From: Saccharofermentans sp. | GTDB lineage: Bacteria > Bacillota > Clostridia > Saccharofermentanales > Saccharofermentanaceae | DNA: 32,489 nt | Reading direction: 5' to 3' | NCBI GenBank assembly: GCA_016292155.1 | Contig: JAEFBC010000021.1 | Span: 1 to 32,489 of the forward strand | In this document: positions 2,573-21,713 of the stretch, one piece after another | Layout of the letters: each line of letters starts with the position of its first letter | How positions within the stretch are numbered: the first letter of the stretch is position 1 | The notes under the pieces: model-generated | What the model was told of the DNA's origin: nothing | The model's input: only the letters and a program-made list of their open reading frames with translations | Databases searched by the model: none | Translations under genes and position numbers: made by a program

Positions 2573-4408
2573 ATGTTAAAGAAAATAATATCGGTCTTAT
2601 TGACCATAACCATAATTTCAGGATTTGTTCTTACCGGCAGAGAAGTTAATGCTGCTGAAGTCGACTACATGAATGTAACTGTCGACCAGATCCTCAAGAT
2701 GAAGGACAAGCCGGACGAACTCGAGGCTGTTCACGGATTTAGCGTCTCATCAGAAAAGAACAGCAAGAAGATCGAAGAAGCGGTCGGGCTTCTTACGCAG
2801 TGCCCGAATATCGAGTCCCTGTACATCTGCGTAAACGGGCTTAAGCTGGATAAGGAATTCTTCAACAATCTCAAGAGTTCAAGATATCTCTACATTAGCC
2901 TGCAGTGGTGTGAAGTCAACCTCGAAGGCATAAAGAATCCGGATATACAGAAGTTTTATCTTACACAGAATAAAGTTGAACATTATGAGGATGTTGTAAA
3001 TCTCGAGAGTCTCGAGACTTTGGTAGTTGAGAGCGTTGAGGGGTTCTGCCAGGCCGACTACAGAAAGCTCGAAAACCTGGAATACCTGGGAATTATAGCA
3101 CAGCGCATTGAAGACTATCAGGAGTTCTTCCAGCATTGCGGAGACCTCGAAGAACTGAGCCTCAAATGCTGCAACATGAGAAACAGCGACATCAGATATC
3201 TGACAGCTTATCTGAAGGGTATCGAGATCCTTGACCTCTATGGCACATATGTTGATGACATCTCATTTCTAAAGGAGCTTCCGTATTTAAGATATATCAA
3301 TCTCCCTTCAGGCGTTGATAATCTGGATGTTCTTTATGAAATAGACGATCTGGAGTGTGTTACTTTCGACTGTTACACAGAACTTTTCGTTGATGAAAAG
3401 CTGATAAAGCATTGGGAAGACAATAATATCAACTACACAAATTTCAAGAAGGACACTCCTGAGAAAGTTAAAAAGATCATGGAGTCTCTGAAGATTCCCG
3501 AGAATGCCACCGATAAGGAAAAGATCGAGAAGGTAACAGAATACGTATTGCTTAACATGAAGTACGGATATAACGACAGTGCTAATTTCAGCGGCACATC
3601 ATTAGATGAGTGCATTGAGTTCAAGAACGGCGTATGCCATGAATATGCAACCATCGAATATACCTTACTGAAGTGTGCCGGAGTTGATGCATATCTGATC
3701 AACGGTTATGCAAGGGATTATTACGGTACTCCTCCGATGGCTCATGCATGGGTCGAGGTCTGTGTTGACGGTGAGTGGTACGGAATCGACCCGACATGGA
3801 TCGACAACGAAGGCCAGAATCCGACCACTGCAAAGTACAAGAAGAATATGTGGACACCGTTCTACATGCAGCCTACAAAGGTTGACGACTGGAACGCATG
3901 GCCCAAGAACGGCGATTTCTCGAAGTGTATGGAAAAATACTTCGCTATGTATCACAGAACCATGAACGATCCTATGGATACGCTTCCTCAGGGCAGGAAA
4001 ACACCTGAACCGGAATACAAGACATATAAGATCACGTTTAAGAACGAAGACGGCTCCGAGCTGCAGACAGGCGATGTCACATTCGGCGAATCACCTTCTT
4101 ATACAGGCAATATGCCGGCTAAGGCTGAAACAGAACTCTACACATATTCTTTCGACGGCTGGACCGATGGAACGAATACTTACAGTGTAAATGATAAGCT
4201 TCCTATCGCATTGGAAAATGCCACATTCACTGCAAAGTACACACAGACCGCAAAGCCCGTTGAAGCACCGGAAATAGCCGAAGAAGCCGAGCCTCAGGAA
4301 AAGAAGATCACTCCAGCGATCTTTGTCTATGCCGGAGTAGTCCTTCTTGCAGGAGCAGGTGCAGTTGCTGTAATCTTAACGGGGAAGAATAAAAAGAAAG
4401 AGAACTAA
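2573..4408 (+). CDS. secreted or cell-surface leucine-rich-repeat protein with transglutaminase-like domain, InlB-type repeat and C-terminal TM anchor
   Basis: Signal peptide; LRR-like repeats; Cys-His-Asp triad in GVCHEYA / MAHAWVEV / GIDPTW; YKITFKNEDGSELQTGDVTFG...YSFDGWTD repeat; terminal TM plus KNKKKEN. Confidence 0.85.
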   Translation: MLKKIISVLLTITIISGFVLTGREVNAAEVDYMNVTVDQILKMKDKPDELEAVHGFSVSSEKNSKKIEEAVGLLTQCPNIESLYICVNGLKLDKEFFNNLKSSRYLYISLQWCEVNLEGIKNPDIQKFYLTQNKVEHYEDVVNLESLETLVVESVEGFCQADYRKLENLEYLGIIAQRIEDYQEFFQHCGDLEELSLKCCNMRNSDIRYLTAYLKGIEILDLYGTYVDDISFLKELPYLRYINLPSGVDNLDVLYEIDDLECVTFDCYTELFVDEKLIKHWEDNNINYTNFKKDTPEKVKKIMESLKIPENATDKEKIEKVTEYVLLNMKYGYNDSANFSGTSLDECIEFKNGVCHEYATIEYTLLKCAGVDAYLINGYARDYYGTPPMAHAWVEVCVDGEWYGIDPTWIDNEGQNPTTAKYKKNMWTPFYMQPTKVDDWNAWPKNGDFSKCMEKYFAMYHRTMNDPMDTLPQGRKTPEPEYKTYKITFKNEDGSELQTGDVTFGESPSYTGNMPAKAETELYTYSFDGWTDGTNTYSVNDKLPIALENATFTAKYTQTAKPVEAPEIAEEAEPQEKKITPAIFVYAGVVLLAGAGAVAVILTGKNKKKEN

Positions 4409-9571: not shown

Positions 9572-10480
9572 ATGAGCACGATTGAAAAGACTTTTAACGA
9601 CGGCGAGATCATCATCAAAGAAGGCGACACAGGCAACACATTCTTCCAGCTTTTGGCAGGCAAGGCTGCAGTTTACAAGAACTACGGCAAGGCTGATGAA
9701 GTTCAGATCGCTGTTTTCGAACCCGGACAGTATTTTGGCGAGATGGCCGTAATCGAGAACTACCCCAGAAGCGCTACAGTCGTTGCTTTGGGCGAAGCTC
9801 AGGTCGACGAGATCGCAGCAGAAGAACTCAATGAATACTTCACACAGAATCCTGAGAAGATCCTTGCCATCATGGAGATTTTCGGCAGCAGGATCAAGAA
9901 GATGACTGAAGATGCAAACGAAGCCAAGAAGGCTTTGGACGATGCAAGAAGAACAAATTCCAAGGACAAGTATTTGAGCTTCTTCGCTCAGATGGCTCAG
10001 CAGTCGATCTACCTCACATCCAAGAATTTCAGACTTGAGCGTCCGAGCGCAGAAGAGCTCCGTGAGGCTTCAAGACTTGTTTCCAGCCAGAGCACAGGCG
10101 ACGGCGAGACATACAACTACGGAACGATCATCTTCAAGGAAGGCGACGTCGGCAAGTGCATGTATATCCTCCACAGCGGCAGCGTCGGCATCTACAGCAA
10201 GTACGGTGCAGTTGATGAATTGAAGCTCCAGGAAGTTGAGCCTGTTGCATGCTTCGGCGAGATGGAAATGCTCTCAGGCGAGGCTCGTGACACCACAGCC
10301 GTTGCAGAAGTTGGCGACACAAGAGTCGAGATCATCCGCGCAGAAGATCTCCCCGGCCTTTTCAAGACAGCTCCTGCCAAGATCGACATGATCCTGAAGA
10401 ACCTCTCATACCGTTTGAGAAGCATCACATACGATTACTTCAAGGCCTGCAAGGAGATCTACGATTCCGCAAACGGCTGA
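9572..10480 (+). CDS. tandem cyclic-nucleotide-binding (CNB) domain protein
   Basis: Two phosphate-binding-cassette-like motifs: FGEMAVIENYPRSATVVA and FGEMEMLSGEARDTTAVA; AAGGGGG SD. Confidence 0.88.
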   Translation: MSTIEKTFNDGEIIIKEGDTGNTFFQLLAGKAAVYKNYGKADEVQIAVFEPGQYFGEMAVIENYPRSATVVALGEAQVDEIAAEELNEYFTQNPEKILAIMEIFGSRIKKMTEDANEAKKALDDARRTNSKDKYLSFFAQMAQQSIYLTSKNFRLERPSAEELREASRLVSSQSTGDGETYNYGTIIFKEGDVGKCMYILHSGSVGIYSKYGAVDELKLQEVEPVACFGEMEMLSGEARDTTAVAEVGDTRVEIIRAEDLPGLFKTAPAKIDMILKNLSYRLRSITYDYFKACKEIYDSANG

Positions 10481-13861: not shown

Positions 13862-15349
13862 ATGCGATTAAAAGACTTATTAAGATTTAAGAACATTGTA
13901 ATTCAGTGTCACGACAATCCGGACGCGGATGCTATTGCATCAGGGTTTGCGTTGAAGTGGTTTTTCGAGAAGAACGGCAAAGATGTCAGATTTATCTACA
14001 GAGGCCGTAATGAGATCAAGAAGAGCAATCTTACGATCATGGTCAAGAAGCTCGAGATCCCGATCGAGTATGTGCCCTTTATCAGTACCGAAGAGACGCC
14101 TGACCTTCTGATCACGGTCGACTGCCAGTACGGTGAGAAGAATGTTACCATGACAGCGGCTAAGAAGGTTGCCATCATCGACCACCACAGAAAGCTGGTC
14201 GAGACTGACGATAAGCTCTCCAACATCAACAACGAACTCGGCAGCTGTTCCACAGTCGTGTGGAAGATGCTGAGGGAGGAAGGATACGATCCGAACGAGA
14301 ATAAGTATGTCGCAACAGCCCTTTACTACGGCCTTTACACCGACACGAACAGACTCTCGGAAGTATCGCACCCTATTGACCGGGACATGCTCGATTCCCT
14401 GAATTTCAACAAGGCTATCGTTACGGAGATGAGCAACTCCAACATCTCTTTGAACGAGCTCCAGATCACGGGAAAAGCGATCCTTAATTATGAATACTAC
14501 GAGAGCAATAAATATCTTGTAATCGAGGCAGAACCCTGCGATCCTTCGATCCTCGGTGTCATCAGTGACTTCGCTCTTGAGACAGAGGGAGTTGATGTCT
14601 GCGTCGCATATTACGTAAGCCCTTACGAAGTTAAATTCTCCGTAAGAAGCTGCTCCAAGGAAGTCTATGCCAACGAGCTCGCAGCATACCTTGCTGACGG
14701 AATGGGCGGCGGCGGCGGTCACATCCTGAAGGCCGGCGGCACCATCAAGCCCGAACTTCTCACAAAGCCCGCAAAGGAGCTCATCAGGGAAAGACTGGCT
14801 CTCTATTACGATACATATCTCGTTATCTATGCAAAGGATACGACGCTCGATACATCCAGGATGAGACGCTATTCCAAGATCCAGCAGACGATGGGCACTG
14901 TAAGGCTTGCAGATGTTTTCCCTGTCGGAACACATATCAATATCAGAACTTTGGAAGGCGACGTCGACACAGTTATCGACGAGGAAGCTTATCTCATGAT
15001 CGGTGTTGAAGGCGAGATCTATCCGATCTCCGAACAGAAGGTCAAGAGCAGCTATGAATTCACGAACTTCGTCTATACGAGAGATTTCGAATATGAGCCT
15101 AGGATCAGGAATTCCGGCACAGGCGAGATCAAGTACGTTCTTCCCTTTGCAAAGACAGTAAGGTCCCTCGGTACATCCATCATATTCGCAAAGCCTCTGG
15201 AGCAGCCTGTAAAGCTCTTCACGGCATGGACCGAGGACAAGTACTATTCAGGCAGAGTAGGCGATTATATCGCTGTCAGAGCCGACGACGAGCATGATAT
15301 CTACATCATCAACAAAGATATTATGGACAAGTCCTATAAGGCGTTCTGA
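13862..15349 (+). CDS. DHH family phosphoesterase (NrnA-like) with C-terminal extension
   Basis: CHDNPDADAIASG, IIDHHRK (DHH), DHHA1 GMGGGGGHILKAGG; extra ~170 aa ending YYSGRVGDYIAVRADDEHDIYIINKDIMDKSY. Confidence 0.88.
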   Translation: MRLKDLLRFKNIVIQCHDNPDADAIASGFALKWFFEKNGKDVRFIYRGRNEIKKSNLTIMVKKLEIPIEYVPFISTEETPDLLITVDCQYGEKNVTMTAAKKVAIIDHHRKLVETDDKLSNINNELGSCSTVVWKMLREEGYDPNENKYVATALYYGLYTDTNRLSEVSHPIDRDMLDSLNFNKAIVTEMSNSNISLNELQITGKAILNYEYYESNKYLVIEAEPCDPSILGVISDFALETEGVDVCVAYYVSPYEVKFSVRSCSKEVYANELAAYLADGMGGGGGHILKAGGTIKPELLTKPAKELIRERLALYYDTYLVIYAKDTTLDTSRMRRYSKIQQTMGTVRLADVFPVGTHINIRTLEGDVDTVIDEEAYLMIGVEGEIYPISEQKVKSSYEFTNFVYTRDFEYEPRIRNSGTGEIKYVLPFAKTVRSLGTSIIFAKPLEQPVKLFTAWTEDKYYSGRVGDYIAVRADDEHDIYIINKDIMDKSYKAF

Positions 15350-15377
15350 TCACGGATTAAAAATGCAGATAATTTAA

Positions 15378-15402
15378 GGGCCGTCTCTTTTAGAGGCGGC
15401 CC
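15378..15402. terminator. hairpin between convergent genes
   Basis: GGGCCGTCTC(15378-15387)/GAGGCGGCCC(15393-15402), one wobble pair; weak T-tracts. Confidence 0.6.
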
Positions 15403-15436
15403 TGATTGGTTAATTCATTACAGGTTACAGAAGTAC

Positions 15437-18400
15437 TTACAGTCCGTACTTGGATTTTGTTGCTTCATCGAGAGCAGCGTCGTTAAGTATCTTCTTACCC
15501 TTTTCGATCAGTTCTTCGACAGTGTAATGCTTAACATATCCCGGCTTGATGCTATAGGTGCTGAGATATGAGTATACATAATACCTTTCTGTTTCCTTGT
15601 GATAGCAATAGAACTGCTCAACGCATGCGATCTCAAACAGTGTTTCAGGGTCATAAACAAAGAGGAGATCTTCTGCCTGGATATAAAGCTCGGAGCCGTT
15701 ATTCTCGAACCATGCTTTGGTCCTTCTTTCATCCGTAAAATACTTCATCTCGCACTTCTTTATGAGGTCGCCGGTCTTGCTGTCATATTTAGAGATATAA
15801 CCGTCGCCGACTACGTAGAAAACATTGTCCTTGAAGATCGCGCAGTCTACATAGTCGCCGTTGCGTTCAATTGTATATTTCTCCTTCAGCTTGTTATCCG
15901 TTACAAGGATCGTGCCTCCGTCGGAGAATAATATCAGTGACTTGTCTTCGGATGTTGTAACATAAATATTCTTCGTATTGGAGAATTCCCAGTTATCCGG
16001 AATATCAATCGTATCGTAATCCATGGAAGACATGTCAACGACATAGATAGTATCTGTTATGAAAAGGAATGCTTTATCGAGACTCTTTATGTAAGTGCCG
16101 TTGAATTTTTTCGTATCAAAATCATCAGTCTTAAGTCCGGAGATCTTCAGTTCCTCTTTGTCTGAGCCGTCATAATTAAAGAACGTAAAGATTACAGAGT
16201 CAGATGAATAGTCTTTGCTGTAAGAGATGACCTTGCCAGAAGAGCAGATGTCACTGTACTGGAGATCCAGATTCATGAGAGTTACTTTCTCTTTTTTGGC
16301 ATCGACCATACAGACGTCATTTCCTAAAGTAATGTAGAACTTACCGTCAATGCATTCAACATTTAATTCGGAGGAGAAAACATCGACATCACGGAGATCT
16401 TCTGTATAAGCCAGCTTGCCTGACTTAAGATCGATTATGCTGACTATGAGATGTGTTATATACTTCTGATCTTCGTTATCGGTCTCTTCTGTAGTGATAG
16501 AAGCGGTAACAAGATAATTCCCGTCTGAATCAAATGCCTGGGACGTGGAACCGATCGAGAAGCCGGACGGAGCTTTTACAGCCGTCCATTCGTCATCCTG
16601 AAGGGAACGCTTATAGCATATGATATCCGTATCGTATTTTGAGACTAAGTAGACGTCATCTCCTATAGCGCCGGTACTGATGTTTTTGTTGTTCGTGGTG
16701 AAAGAATAAAATCTGTTATCTTTCTTGTTTGCAGAGTATATATATTCGCCGCTGCTTAATATGAATTCCGGCATTCCGTTCTCGTTAAAGTCTCCAGCAG
16801 CAACAACCGAACTGCCTGCTGAATACCTGTGCAGTTCTTTTCCGGTCTCAAGATCATAGATGCCGATCACATCACCAACGTAGAAGACAACTGCGCTGCG
16901 CGAAGGCAGATACATGATGCCGGGACCCTCTGACAGCTGTGTATATTCCAGATCCGTTGACCACGTCTGACCGGTCTTGACGTTATAGATGGTAAAAGTC
17001 TTGACCGCGGGTACGAGGTTACTGAGCCTGTTTGTGTACCGGAAAGATGTATTGACTAAGTCTTTGGTGCTGACCACACAGAGGTAATCGTTATCAACAA
17101 ACTTTATTTCGTGCACGAAATGAGCATCAATAGAAAAAGACTTGATATTTGATGTTGCAGTGTCAAAGATATTGATGTTGATATCATCAGTTGCAAAAGA
17201 TGACTCGGTATATGCAAAACGGCTGCAGTCAGGGGAAATGCCGAGATCTGAGACAGCAGATATGTATTTATTGTCGCTTACCGTATAAGACGTTTCTTCT
17301 TTGCCGTCTCTCGAAGAAAGTCTTACAACAGTAGCTCCGCCTGTATAAACGATGATATCTGTCGATGAGAAACTGATATAGCTGTCACTGAACGGTACAG
17401 AAGAAGAGGGCTTATTATATACCCACATCTGTTTTCCGGAGGGAAGGTTATAAGCCTCGATCGAAAAAGGATATGTGATGACTAACGTCTCGTTGTTGGG
17501 AATATCGATCCTTACAGGATTATTCCTGCATGTCAGCTCGAAAAGAAGTTCGCGGGTCTCAGTGTCCCAGCAATAAGCGGTTCCTGCCGAGTCAACTGCC
17601 GCAAGATAAGCCTGATCGGCAGACAGGATGCTCTTTTCAATTGAATATTTACACTTAAAGTTCCAGGCTGCCGTGAATTCCAGACTGCTGAGGGATTTAT
17701 ATGCTGCGGTTGCATCTGCGATCGCACGTACAGCAGGTGCGGTTACGGGCTTCTTGTCTCTCTTATTGGAAGGGAGGGATGCCAGTGCCAGCTGGATAGC
17801 ATCAGCTCTCTTGCCGTTCTCGAGAAGCTGCTCTGACTCGTTTGCAAGATAGACCGATCTGCTGCGCAGGGATTCCAGATAAGCATTGTTGATCTGTATC
17901 CTGCTGTAGAGCATGTATCCGCCGAAAGCGAGAACGCCTGCAAATGCTGCTGCAACTATAGCGGCAGCACGCTTCATCCTGTACTGTCTCGAGCGCCTCT
18001 GGAGCTCGTCGTATGAACATCCGAGAAGGCCTGCCGCAAGGCGGGGGAGCTCTTCCTTGTCCGCTCTGCTCAACGGCATTCTGTAATCGCAGGAGAGCGG
18101 TTCCACAGGCACATTTACCATGTGCGGGAAACCATTGGAATCAATGATCTCTTTCTCGATCGTGAGGAGCTCTTCAGGAATTACGTCCTGAGGTTCGCCG
18201 TCGCAGAGAACCGTGAAGATCTTATCTTTGGAGTGAGTCTTAAGGAAGGTCTGGATCTCTCTTTTGACCCACATTGATTCTTTAGTGTTGGTGGAGCAGA
18301 TAACGATCAGGTACTCGGATTTTTCGAGCGCGTTGGTAATCGTCTCAGTAAGGTCGCTCGTGATGGGGAGCTCGTCCTTGTCTCTGAAGATACGTGTGAT

Positions 18401-18535
18401 CTTCTTGTGCTCGATCTTGCCCTTAAGATTGTGGGGAACGTGGAAATGTTCAAGCTGTCTTTGGACATGTGAAGCGATCTTAATATCCAGCGGTGCGTGC
18501 TTGTACGAGATAAAAGCGTTGTAAAAATCTATCAT
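15437..18535 (-). CDS. TIR domain - transmembrane helix - helical linker - beta-propeller (WD40/PQQ-like) protein
   Basis: N-terminal FYNAFISYKHAPLD...SEYLIVICSTNTKESMWVKREI TIR; TM AAAIVAAAFAGVLAFGGYML; repeated blades (YCWDTETRELLFEL, SKYDSKTGDLIKKC); GGGAGAGG SD. Confidence 0.88.
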   Translation of the reverse strand: MIDFYNAFISYKHAPLDIKIASHVQRQLEHFHVPHNLKGKIEHKKITRIFRDKDELPITSDLTETITNALEKSEYLIVICSTNTKESMWVKREIQTFLKTHSKDKIFTVLCDGEPQDVIPEELLTIEKEIIDSNGFPHMVNVPVEPLSCDYRMPLSRADKEELPRLAAGLLGCSYDELQRRSRQYRMKRAAAIVAAAFAGVLAFGGYMLYSRIQINNAYLESLRSRSVYLANESEQLLENGKRADAIQLALASLPSNKRDKKPVTAPAVRAIADATAAYKSLSSLEFTAAWNFKCKYSIEKSILSADQAYLAAVDSAGTAYCWDTETRELLFELTCRNNPVRIDIPNNETLVITYPFSIEAYNLPSGKQMWVYNKPSSSVPFSDSYISFSSTDIIVYTGGATVVRLSSRDGKEETSYTVSDNKYISAVSDLGISPDCSRFAYTESSFATDDININIFDTATSNIKSFSIDAHFVHEIKFVDNDYLCVVSTKDLVNTSFRYTNRLSNLVPAVKTFTIYNVKTGQTWSTDLEYTQLSEGPGIMYLPSRSAVVFYVGDVIGIYDLETGKELHRYSAGSSVVAAGDFNENGMPEFILSSGEYIYSANKKDNRFYSFTTNNKNISTGAIGDDVYLVSKYDTDIICYKRSLQDDEWTAVKAPSGFSIGSTSQAFDSDGNYLVTASITTEETDNEDQKYITHLIVSIIDLKSGKLAYTEDLRDVDVFSSELNVECIDGKFYITLGNDVCMVDAKKEKVTLMNLDLQYSDICSSGKVISYSKDYSSDSVIFTFFNYDGSDKEELKISGLKTDDFDTKKFNGTYIKSLDKAFLFITDTIYVVDMSSMDYDTIDIPDNWEFSNTKNIYVTTSEDKSLILFSDGGTILVTDNKLKEKYTIERNGDYVDCAIFKDNVFYVVGDGYISKYDSKTGDLIKKCEMKYFTDERRTKAWFENNGSELYIQAEDLLFVYDPETLFEIACVEQFYCYHKETERYYVYSYLSTYSIKPGYVKHYTVEELIEKGKKILNDAALDEATKSKYGL

Positions 18536-18670
18536 GAAAGCCTCTCCCTTTTTCTTCCTTCAAGTAATAGTAACATAAAACTCTTTTGAGTACCTATATA
18601 CCCCTATTACAGACGGGCAGGGGAGAATGTTGCAGTTTTGGCGGCGTGTTTCCGGCCGTCACTATCTCAT

Positions 18671-18810
18671 TTGCCCGAAAAAATAGCCTTTAAGATAGAA
18701 AATCGCGATTTTCTATCTTTTTTGCCTTAAAAATGGCCGTTTGCGATAGAAAATCGCCTTTTTCTGTCATTTTCGCCACATAAAAAGGCCGTTTGCGATA
18801 GTGGAACGGT
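18671..18810. repeat. degenerate tandem repeat array, 51-52 nt period, with 28-bp perfect palindrome
   Basis: Units begin at 18671, 18722 and 18773; GGCCGTTTGCGATAG at 18735 and 18787; GATAGAAAATCGC at 18694 and 18745; palindrome AAGATAGAAAATCGCGATTTTCTATCTT 18692-18719. Confidence 0.85.
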
Positions 18811-21141
18811 TCACCCGGCGCGGCTTACGATCGTCACTGTGCCCTTCTCGCCGTCGACGGTAACAACATCGCCGGTCTTAAGCACCGTGGTCGCATTGGA
18901 GCACCCGACAACGGCGGGGATTCCGAACTCACGGGCGACGATCGCAGCGTGCGACAGGGGCGCGCCGATGTCGGTTACGATCGCGGACACCTTGTGGAAC
19001 GCGACGGTCCAGCCGATATTTGTGGCTCGGGTGACAAGGATCTCGCCTTCGTTAAGTTCGCCAATGCGCGATACATCGTTGATCACGCGGACTTTGCCGG
19101 TTACGATGCCTGCAGCGCCCGCAAAGCCTTTGACGTCGGCGGTGCTGTCTGTGCCGGAGGGGCGGCCGCTGACATAATAATCGTACCTTCTGGCAGGATC
19201 AGCCATCCATTTATCAGGATCGAACCTGCCGATGATGACGCCGGGGAAGCCCGGATAGGAGAGATATCCTGCAAAAGTCTCTTTGCGGGCAGGGATGTAT
19301 GAGACGGCCGTCTTGTCGCCCTTCAACAGCGCGAACATCTCCTTGTAGCCCAGCATGAAGATGTCTTCGCCGATGCCGTTAAGCTCGCCCGCCTTAAGGC
19401 AGTACTGTCTGAACACGCAGAAGATGCGGACGCCTTTGCTCCTTATGTCCTCGCGAAAAGCATTCGCACGGATAAATTTCCCTATCTCTTTGTCGATCCA
19501 CTTGCGCCTGGAAGGGTACTTCTCCTTGAATTCGGCGAGAGCCTCTTCGTATGAAGTCTTCTGGCGCTCCTGCATTGCGCGGAGGCTGGCGGCATTGGCA
19601 GCGCGGTCTTTAAGCAATGCATCGATGAATGACGGATCCTCGTAAGGTCTTGGCGCCATGAGTTCCATCTCGTCAGCAGACCTGTGGCCGCACTCGCGGA
19701 TGTAATCCTCGCGGGTCATCTTGCCTGATGCGACGTCTTCCAAAAGAAGCGTCGGCTTCATGCACTCGATAATGCCGAGCGAGCCGCCCAGCAGGCGGTT
19801 TGCCATGTCTTCGCCGGCGATCTCTGAGATCTTTTTGCGCAGTGAGAAAAGGGGCACCAGGGAAGTGCCGCTCTCGGCCAGGATCGAAGCCAGGCCGTCA
19901 TTTAACTTAGGCTGGAGAACCTCATCCCAGAATTCCATAAGCTCAGCGTTCGAACCGATAGTCTTTATCCGCCCGATGAGTTCCTCGGAAATGATATGAA
20001 GGTTAGCCACCATTTCATGCTTCTGCTTCTTTGTGAGCTTCGACTTTTCCTTAGGGAACAGAAGGTGCAGGAGGTTTTTTCTGAACGCCATTTTGTCAAA
20101 GGGCGAGACCGGTATCTCGCAGCCTTCGGGAATGCCGCCGACCAGGTCTTTTACGGTCTCATAAGCCTTCTCGCGGGATCTTCCGAAGCTCACCATGAGC
20201 GAGCACATGACAGATACGTTCATGTACGCCTGACCGCAGATGTTGTCAAGCCAGTCAGGGAGACCCAGGAACTCATTGATCTTCTCCAGCACGCTGAAGG
20301 TCATGGGGCTTACGGGCTTCATGAAGATCTCACCGACGTTGGTCTTGGTCAGGAATTTTGAGCCCGATCTCGTGCCGTTTACGTCGTAGTTTCTGGTGTA
20401 AAGCCTTGTAAGAGTCGTTATCGGGCGCGCCTGAAGGATATAGACTCTGCGCCCCTTTACGCACCATTCGATATCCATCGGAACGCCGTAGAAGAAGCGT
20501 ATTGCGAGGCTGTATTTCCGCAGCGTTTTTGCGAATGGTTCGAGCTCCGCGCCCCCTTCGTAGGAATATTCCAGAGCGCCTATCTTAAACACTTCGGCGT
20601 TTTCTGTGCCCGACACGAGCTTCTCGCCCTCTCCGTGGACGTAGTTGCCGATAATGTAATCGTCTCTGCCGGTCATGACATCGGAGGTGAATATGACGCC
20701 TGCAAAATCAGCCTTTACGAATTCCTGGATCACGACGCCGATGCCTTCGGAGGCGATGTCATTTTGCAATCTGTAGTTCTCAACGCGCGCGTTTTCAGCT
20801 GATGCGGCGACTGTGTTAACAGCGTCCCTGATTCCGGGGACCATCAGATCGGTCAATGTCTCATACTGTCCTGCAAATGAATTGCCCGCGCCGTCTTCGC
20901 CGATCGCGGAAGACCTGACCGCATAAGTTTTAAGGCGGTCCAGCTTCGCGATCACCGCACCAAGTTCCGCGTTTGCCTCATCTGTTATCCTGCCGCCCCG
21001 GAAAGCATCCGCGGTGATAACGTAGCCGGAAGGTATGTTCATCTTCAGGTTCTGCATCATGAGTGACAGCGACGAAGCTTTGCCGCCGCACTTTTCGAGC
21101 AGTGAAGAAGGGATGGATCTTAAGTCAAAAATGTATTTCAT
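18811..21141 (-). CDS. PPDK-N / PEP-utilizer mobile-domain protein, rifampin-phosphotransferase-like domain order
   Basis: ATP-binding YAVRSSAIGEDGAGNSFAGQYET, VYILQARPITTL; C-terminal swivelling His domain LSHAAIVAREFGIPAVVG...GDVVTVDGEKGTVTI; no C-terminal TIM barrel. Confidence 0.85.
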   Translation of the reverse strand: MKYIFDLRSIPSSLLEKCGGKASSLSLMMQNLKMNIPSGYVITADAFRGGRITDEANAELGAVIAKLDRLKTYAVRSSAIGEDGAGNSFAGQYETLTDLMVPGIRDAVNTVAASAENARVENYRLQNDIASEGIGVVIQEFVKADFAGVIFTSDVMTGRDDYIIGNYVHGEGEKLVSGTENAEVFKIGALEYSYEGGAELEPFAKTLRKYSLAIRFFYGVPMDIEWCVKGRRVYILQARPITTLTRLYTRNYDVNGTRSGSKFLTKTNVGEIFMKPVSPMTFSVLEKINEFLGLPDWLDNICGQAYMNVSVMCSLMVSFGRSREKAYETVKDLVGGIPEGCEIPVSPFDKMAFRKNLLHLLFPKEKSKLTKKQKHEMVANLHIISEELIGRIKTIGSNAELMEFWDEVLQPKLNDGLASILAESGTSLVPLFSLRKKISEIAGEDMANRLLGGSLGIIECMKPTLLLEDVASGKMTREDYIRECGHRSADEMELMAPRPYEDPSFIDALLKDRAANAASLRAMQERQKTSYEEALAEFKEKYPSRRKWIDKEIGKFIRANAFREDIRSKGVRIFCVFRQYCLKAGELNGIGEDIFMLGYKEMFALLKGDKTAVSYIPARKETFAGYLSYPGFPGVIIGRFDPDKWMADPARRYDYYVSGRPSGTDSTADVKGFAGAAGIVTGKVRVINDVSRIGELNEGEILVTRATNIGWTVAFHKVSAIVTDIGAPLSHAAIVAREFGIPAVVGCSNATTVLKTGDVVTVDGEKGTVTIVSRAG

Positions 21142-21713
21142 GCCAGCAGGAGGTCGATCCTCATATCGATATATTTCTTAAGTTCTTTGTCCTTGTCGAG
21201 ACTGATGCCGAAGTCGCGCTTCAGATCGTCCTTGCGGCAGATCATGAGCTGCATCGTGGAAGACAGTTCATATGCGATCAGGCGGCACTCCCGGTCGGTC
21301 TTCCTGCCGGCGTAGTGCTTCTTAACGTAAGGGAAGCTGAAGGATTCTTTAGACAGGTCGCGTTCGAAAAGCACGAATGGTGAGATCGCCTTCGTGAACT
21401 TGGGGTTCTCCACAAGACATTTAGCGACGATGAAATGAAGCTTCTTCAAAAGCTCCTTGGGAGAGATGTCCGACGCGATCAGTTCGGCGACGGGCTCTTC
21501 CTTCAGAAAATCCAGGTACTGCTTCTGGAAAGTCTGATAGATAAGGTTCTCGCGTGAGCCGAAGCAGTAGTTGATCATGGAGGGCTTAACGCCGGCGCGC
21601 TCTGCTATCTGGCGTGAAGTCACGTTGAGCGGATCGTCTGCTTCTTCCATCAGCGCGAATGTGGCGTCTATCAGTTTGTCCTTTGTAATGCCCAGTTTTA
21701 TGTCCTTTTGCAT
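21138..21713 (-). CDS. TetR family transcriptional regulator
   Basis: N-terminal HTH LIDATFALMEEADDPLNVTSRQIAERAGVKPSMINYCFGSRENLIYQTF; 4-nt ATGA overlap with downstream gene. Confidence 0.9.
   Translation of the reverse strand: MQKDIKLGITKDKLIDATFALMEEADDPLNVTSRQIAERAGVKPSMINYCFGSRENLIYQTFQKQYLDFLKEEPVAELIASDISPKELLKKLHFIVAKCLVENPKFTKAISPFVLFERDLSKESFSFPYVKKHYAGRKTDRECRLIAYELSSTMQLMICRKDDLKRDFGISLDKDKELKKYIDMRIDLLLA

Follow-up and report, generated by a model that had tools for sequence, protein, structure and literature searches.

A TIR receptor with a predicted beta-propeller ectodomain and its adjacent DHH/DHHA1 gene: a candidate two-gene signalling module in rumen and gut Clostridia

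The window (the whole stretch of 32,489 nucleotides that was analysed) carries a gene for a predicted membrane receptor and, converging on it, a gene for a DHH/DHHA1 phosphodiesterase. The features of this locus are:

13862..15349, plus strand: DHH/DHHA1 phosphodiesterase gene, convergent with the TIR gene and 87 bp apart from it
15350..15436, no strand assigned: intergenic hairpin GGGCCGTCTC...GAGGCGGCCC, -25.6 kcal/mol, z -3.5
15437..18535, minus strand: TIR-TM-double-propeller receptor gene, 1032 aa, ATG at 18535
18146..18535, minus strand: TIR domain, residues 1-130, with the TIR_2 stretch at residues 18-120
18269-18271, minus strand: Trp89, within the TIR domain
18257-18259, minus strand: catalytic-position Glu93, within the TIR domain
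17819..18013, minus strand: continuous predicted helix, residues 175-239, comprising the basic flank and the TM segment (residues ~190-211)
17711..17809, minus strand: pre-propeller helices, residues 243-275 (AlphaFold2 model)
15530..17674, minus strand: tandem beta-propeller ectodomain, residues 288-1002, ~63 strands (Pfam, AlphaFold2, Foldseek)
15440..15520, minus strand: conserved C-terminal helices, residues 1006-1032 (alignment of relatives and model)
18536..18620, minus strand: receptor upstream region, similar in several relatives

The open reading frame at 15437-18535 is real, but its strand in the original prediction needs correction to minus. The intergenic hairpin is likely a terminator that serves both genes; it is not among the terminators listed by a simple terminator scan. 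By eye, the upstream region holds a -10-like element (TATGTTACTATTA) and a ribosome site (GGGAGAGG), the former not being among the promoters listed by a promoter scan. Also upstream of the TIR gene lie imperfect 51-nt units (18662-18801) with a perfect 28-nt palindrome at 18692-18719. A pattern search finds the 23-nt core in single copy in the own genome, and similar elements bearing GCGATAG are seen upstream of the TIR gene in the relatives L109, L111 and L113. Three other places in the window are of note. The protein encoded at 2573-4408 is predicted to be at the surface and combines leucine-rich repeats with a transglutaminase core; that at 9572-10480 has two cyclic-nucleotide-binding domains but nothing that obviously binds DNA; and at 18811-21713 lies a PEP-synthase-like protein with a TetR regulator, a neighbour of the TIR gene in just one clade.

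Results obtained with Pfam, hydrophobicity analysis, AlphaFold2 and Foldseek bear out the layout that had been read from the letters, i.e. an N-terminal TIR domain, one TM segment and a propeller. Pfam reports TIR_2 (1.4e-9), ThsB_TIR (5.6e-9) and PQQ_2 (2e-13), each above cut-off. The AlphaFold2 model (mean pLDDT 89, based on 75 sequences) starts with a TIR-like alternation of strands and helices; profile, strand order and PDB profile matches all place this domain in the TIR family. It continues with one 65-residue helix (175-239) that spans the membrane segment, two linker helices (243-252 and 266-275, in agreement with the helical segment proposed after the TM), ~63 strands and two C-terminal helices. 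Near the end of the protein Y1030 is nearly invariant and G1031 invariant among relatives. The ectodomain of ~750 aa shows the repeated four-stranded blades of WD40/PQQ-like tandem propellers. Foldseek returns tandem WD40 proteins and Apaf-1 for the model (E 1e-16 to 1e-20), and the blade count of ~15-16 is an estimate because the whole-model TM-scores are low (0.2-0.3). Searching the PDB by sequence with the whole receptor gave nothing useful.

Hydrophobicity shows a single peak (2.01 at residue 200), with six K/R before it and three after. Such a peak (at least 1.3) is found at about residue 196 in 154/154 relatives, and K/R before the TM outnumber those after it in 148/154. This bias points inward and supports the basic flank and the TIR-in, propeller-out topology that had been proposed. 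From sequence and model we infer that the propellers lie outside and the TIR in the cytosol.

Membership of known receptor classes was considered as well. The protein resembles Toll-like receptors in being single pass with the sensor outside and the TIR inside, but its order is inverted (TIR N-terminal) and propellers take the place of LRRs; it is therefore not of that class and represents a separate layout. STAND/NLR membership was rejected: no NTPase Pfam match lies between the TIR and the repeats, and residues 175-280 are modelled as helices only. SARM1 and plant TIR NADases such as ROQ1 have the WxxxE motif with a Glu at the catalytic position in common with the receptor, which lacks their ARM/SAM or NB-ARC/LRR parts and instead has a single TM and outside propellers.

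The WVKREI motif is present as noted, and its Glu (E93) is invariant in 98/98 aligned relatives, together with S10, H13, D17, D52, S87, W89, F97 and G113. In a PDB profile alignment the family profile, which also matches AbTIR, TcpB and plant and TLR TIR entries, puts E93 on E86 of plant ROQ1, which we take to be the catalytic residue. However, TLR2 likewise carries a Glu at this position, so E93 by itself is no proof of activity. In addition, a published screen of 152 bacterial TIRs detected activity in only 28, although its authors note that false negatives are possible (PMC9092222). The NADase activity suggested in the original prediction is therefore plausible from the sequence, with a Glu at the catalytic position of WxxxE, but the case for it is weakened by these two observations.

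The strongest functional clue is the adjacent DHH/DHHA1 gene, which did not figure in that prediction. Its product retains the DHH/DHHA1 motifs HDNPDADA, IDHH, GLYTDT and GGGGGH. The AlphaFold2 model (pLDDT 89.5) is without a membrane segment, and its best Foldseek matches are TM1595, Borrelia DhhP, GdpP, Rv2837c and NrnA (E 1e-13 to 1e-17); the best PDB folds are c-di-AMP/pApA phosphodiesterases. Whereas motifs and fold are common to DhhP, GdpP, NrnA and Rv2837c, the partner differs in its linkage to a TIR receptor and in an extra conserved C-terminal region of ~160 aa (residues ~335-495). Pfam gives no match for this region, which has many invariant residues (among them R362, E365, G366, D367, K451, F453, T454 and W456). 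An internal duplication seen there by eye finds no support from BLAST (E 0.21).

In most genomes examined, including that of the window, RecJ and a DHH protein of 350-360 aa are encoded by separate genes, which rules out the paired DHH as sole housekeeping NrnA. A diadenylate cyclase is encoded in 14/14 genomes tested. G006 and G082 lack the paired DHH (G006 does have the TIR), yet both still encode RecJ, the cyclase and the DHH protein of 350-360 aa, and for this reason the paired DHH is best seen as an addition to the housekeeping set.

Clustering all neighbours against each other yields one common neighbour in 69 loci, namely the DHH/DHHA1 protein. A separate scan, with genomes partly the same as in the clustering, finds it in 61/80 named loci. 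Among 140 classifiable loci (154 distinct homologues) the DHH gene adjoins the TIR-propeller gene in 105, in three arrangements: 79 tail-to-tail (convergent), 24 with DHH followed by TIR and 2 with TIR followed by DHH. The remainder comprises 34 loci without DHH nearby, of which at least 13 belong to a shorter paralogue family, and one with DHH at 4 kb. The gap between the two genes has a median of 24 bp and they often overlap; 16 of the 24 tandem DHH-TIR pairs overlap or lie within 5 bp. The tree requires at least four switches among the three adjacent arrangements, and other neighbours of the TIR gene vary between clades. Layout, conservation and pairing are thus established by the analysis, as is the survival of the pairing through rearrangement.

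Co-occurrence gives a similar picture: within the genus, DHH is found in 69/72 genomes with the TIR gene against 1/8 without it (p 3e-7), with p-values of 4e-23 for the class and 2e-14 outside the genus, all uncorrected for phylogeny and completeness. Members of this DHH subfamily in two further families adjoin a TIR gene in ~20/42 loci (mostly with 1.5 kb flanks) and have no TIR neighbour in ~22/42 flanked loci. Because it also occurs without a TIR neighbour, the subfamily has uses of its own. In three further genomes, which belong to these loci, the TIR protein beside the same DHH subfamily is an unrelated TIR-TM-DUF6273 receptor; it has a single TM and matches the TIR-propeller receptor in its S-x5-E spacing:

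L284, 5325-7067: TIR-TM-DUF6273 gene beside DHH
L299, 2-1417: TIR-TM-DUF6273 gene beside DHH
L324, 63-1481: TIR-TM-DUF6273 gene beside DHH

The pairing therefore tracks the TIR-TM receptor layout and not the propeller. In the open-access papers searched we found no description of TIR with DHH or of a two-gene TIR-DHH pathway; TIR-WD40 proteins of these bacteria and the combination of DUF6273 and TIR were likewise not described there.

Over 96 paired loci the median pairwise identity is 63% for the TIR, 60% for the DHH protein and 25% for the ectodomain. The signalling ends are under constraint and divergence is tolerated at the sensor end, the pattern expected of receptors. Together with topology and model this argues for an outside-sensing, inside-acting receptor, as had been proposed; the NAD-consuming part of that proposal is plausible at the level of sequence.

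Homologues of the receptor are present in 77/85 genomes of the genus, well beyond chance, and in 47/49 of those that are at least 90% complete. The genus appears to be Saccharofermentans-like and largely of rumen origin, and named relatives carrying homologues are rumen and gut Clostridia (Saccharofermentans-like, Butyrivibrio and other Lachnospiraceae). No receptor paralogues were found in the own genome, which is 77% complete. The genus, like Butyrivibrio, also has a shorter (~820 aa) TIR-TM family (L059-L078; L325, 5977-8421), with no DHH neighbour in its classifiable loci. Protein WP_167562754.1 of Butyrivibrio plasmid pNP243 is related in its TIR region, with 33% identity across residues 5-331, but is ~815 aa long against 1032, with a shorter C-terminal part and no DHH neighbour.

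Given these observations, the explanation we favour, with a probability of roughly 45%, is a two-gene transmembrane signalling module in which the TIR produces a nucleotide from NAD under the control of a ligand outside the cell, and the DHH protein either removes this nucleotide or responds to it. The receptor would be held in the membrane by its single helix, with the propellers outside the Gram-positive cell and the TIR in the cytosol. A ligand would bind the propellers and change their arrangement; given the fast evolution of the ectodomain, it is probably not the same in all species. Upon binding, the continuous helix 175-239 may bring TIRs together, and the assembled TIR would cleave NAD+ to an ADP-ribose-type nucleotide via Glu93. 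The DHH/DHHA1 protein would act on this nucleotide, most likely by degrading it as an off-switch, its conserved C-terminal region presumably recognising the substrate. A downstream effector was not found in the loci analysed, which counts against this explanation, as do the Glu of TLR2, the 34 loci with no DHH nearby, the presence of the TIR without such a DHH in G006, and the DHH subfamily members that have no TIR neighbour.

There is a precedent for such an off-switch: in Sulfolobus, the membrane-associated DHH-DHHA1 nuclease MAD degrades cyclic oligoadenylates, the type III CRISPR signal, and so disposes of a second messenger of immunity (PMC7854544). The partner described here differs in being predicted without a membrane segment and in being linked to TIR, not CRISPR. 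A 2026 preprint reports that a phage glycosidase cleaves 2'/3'cADPR and states that 2'cADPR and 3'cADPR had until then lacked any known hydrolysing protein (PMC13232231). A DHH enzyme acting on a signal of this type would be new.

It might also be argued that the DHH protein serves as effector and not as off-switch: much as ThsA is activated by ThsB, its nuclease or phosphodiesterase would be turned on when the TIR product binds its C-terminal region. The pairing itself fits this reading, as do the many invariant residues of a region that has no Pfam match, as a sensor might have. We consider it rather unlikely, though the likeliest of the alternatives, in view of the DHH genes found without TIR in other contexts and of fold neighbours that are phosphodiesterases of small nucleotides. 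Lower still we place a TIR that serves as a non-enzymatic scaffold and recruits a cytosolic partner in the manner of Toll-like receptors. Such a role would agree with the S-x-W-C-x-x-E stretch common to TLR2 and with the majority of bacterial TIRs being without NADase activity in the screen mentioned above; yet Glu93 and Trp89 are fully conserved across very diverged members, and a nucleotide-enzyme partner suits an enzymatic TIR better.

Most of what is known of bacterial TIR proteins concerns cytosolic components of phage defence, and anti-phage abortive infection of the Thoeris kind with an outside trigger was therefore weighed. The TIR is indeed related to ThsB: both have a TIR_2/ThsB-type domain with a Glu at the catalytic position and a nucleotide-linked partner gene, and a fast-evolving sensor domain would suit defence. 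Nevertheless we regard this as improbable. Where Thoeris has an effector gene beside the TIR gene, the recurrent neighbour here is DHH, and no ThsA or other Thoeris effector was seen among the window proteins scanned. We know of no TM or ectodomain in descriptions of ThsB, and the present sensor faces outward. Defence genes are patchy and lie in islands or mobile elements, whereas the receptor is near-core in its genus. The idea of a defence island raised in the original prediction likewise finds no support: gene surroundings vary and look like housekeeping genes, the receptor has no phage match, plasmid matches are partial with none near-complete, and PADLOC gives weak matches only. Least probable of all is a DHH protein that turns over c-di-AMP/pApA or nanoRNA alone beside a TIR gene that is merely its neighbour, for although its fold and the diadenylate cyclase encoded in every genome tested would permit this, the two genes have stayed adjacent through four or more rearrangements, an unrelated second family of TIR receptors shows the adjacency too, and G082 and G006 dispense with the paired-type DHH while retaining the cyclase.

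Returning to the two-gene module, a wider form of it would be a general, non-defence second-messenger pathway in Clostridia, with exchangeable outside sensors (propellers or DUF6273), TIR as the writer of a signal of the cyclic ADP-ribose type, and a bacterial DHH/DHHA1 protein dedicated to erasing or reading it. This extension is more doubtful than the module as such. If the proposal is true, it would suggest that rumen and gut Clostridia use nucleotides derived from NAD for ordinary signalling from outside to inside, and the DHH partner would become a specific candidate for the bacterial enzyme that deals with TIR signals. Being small, the pair lends itself to direct tests in vitro.

In three Lachnospiraceae loci (L280, L285 and L286) a DHH copy has, by eye, a LexA-like gene and a gene for a short protein with a single TM as neighbours, which suggests an SOS-linked role for that copy. 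One Lachnospiraceae genome (L292, 4875-9559) has a TIR-propeller gene beside DHH, split into two ORFs. Finally, Butyrivibrio-type genomes (L190, L296, L185 and L291) carry duplicated TIR-propeller genes, in tandem or divergent orientation.
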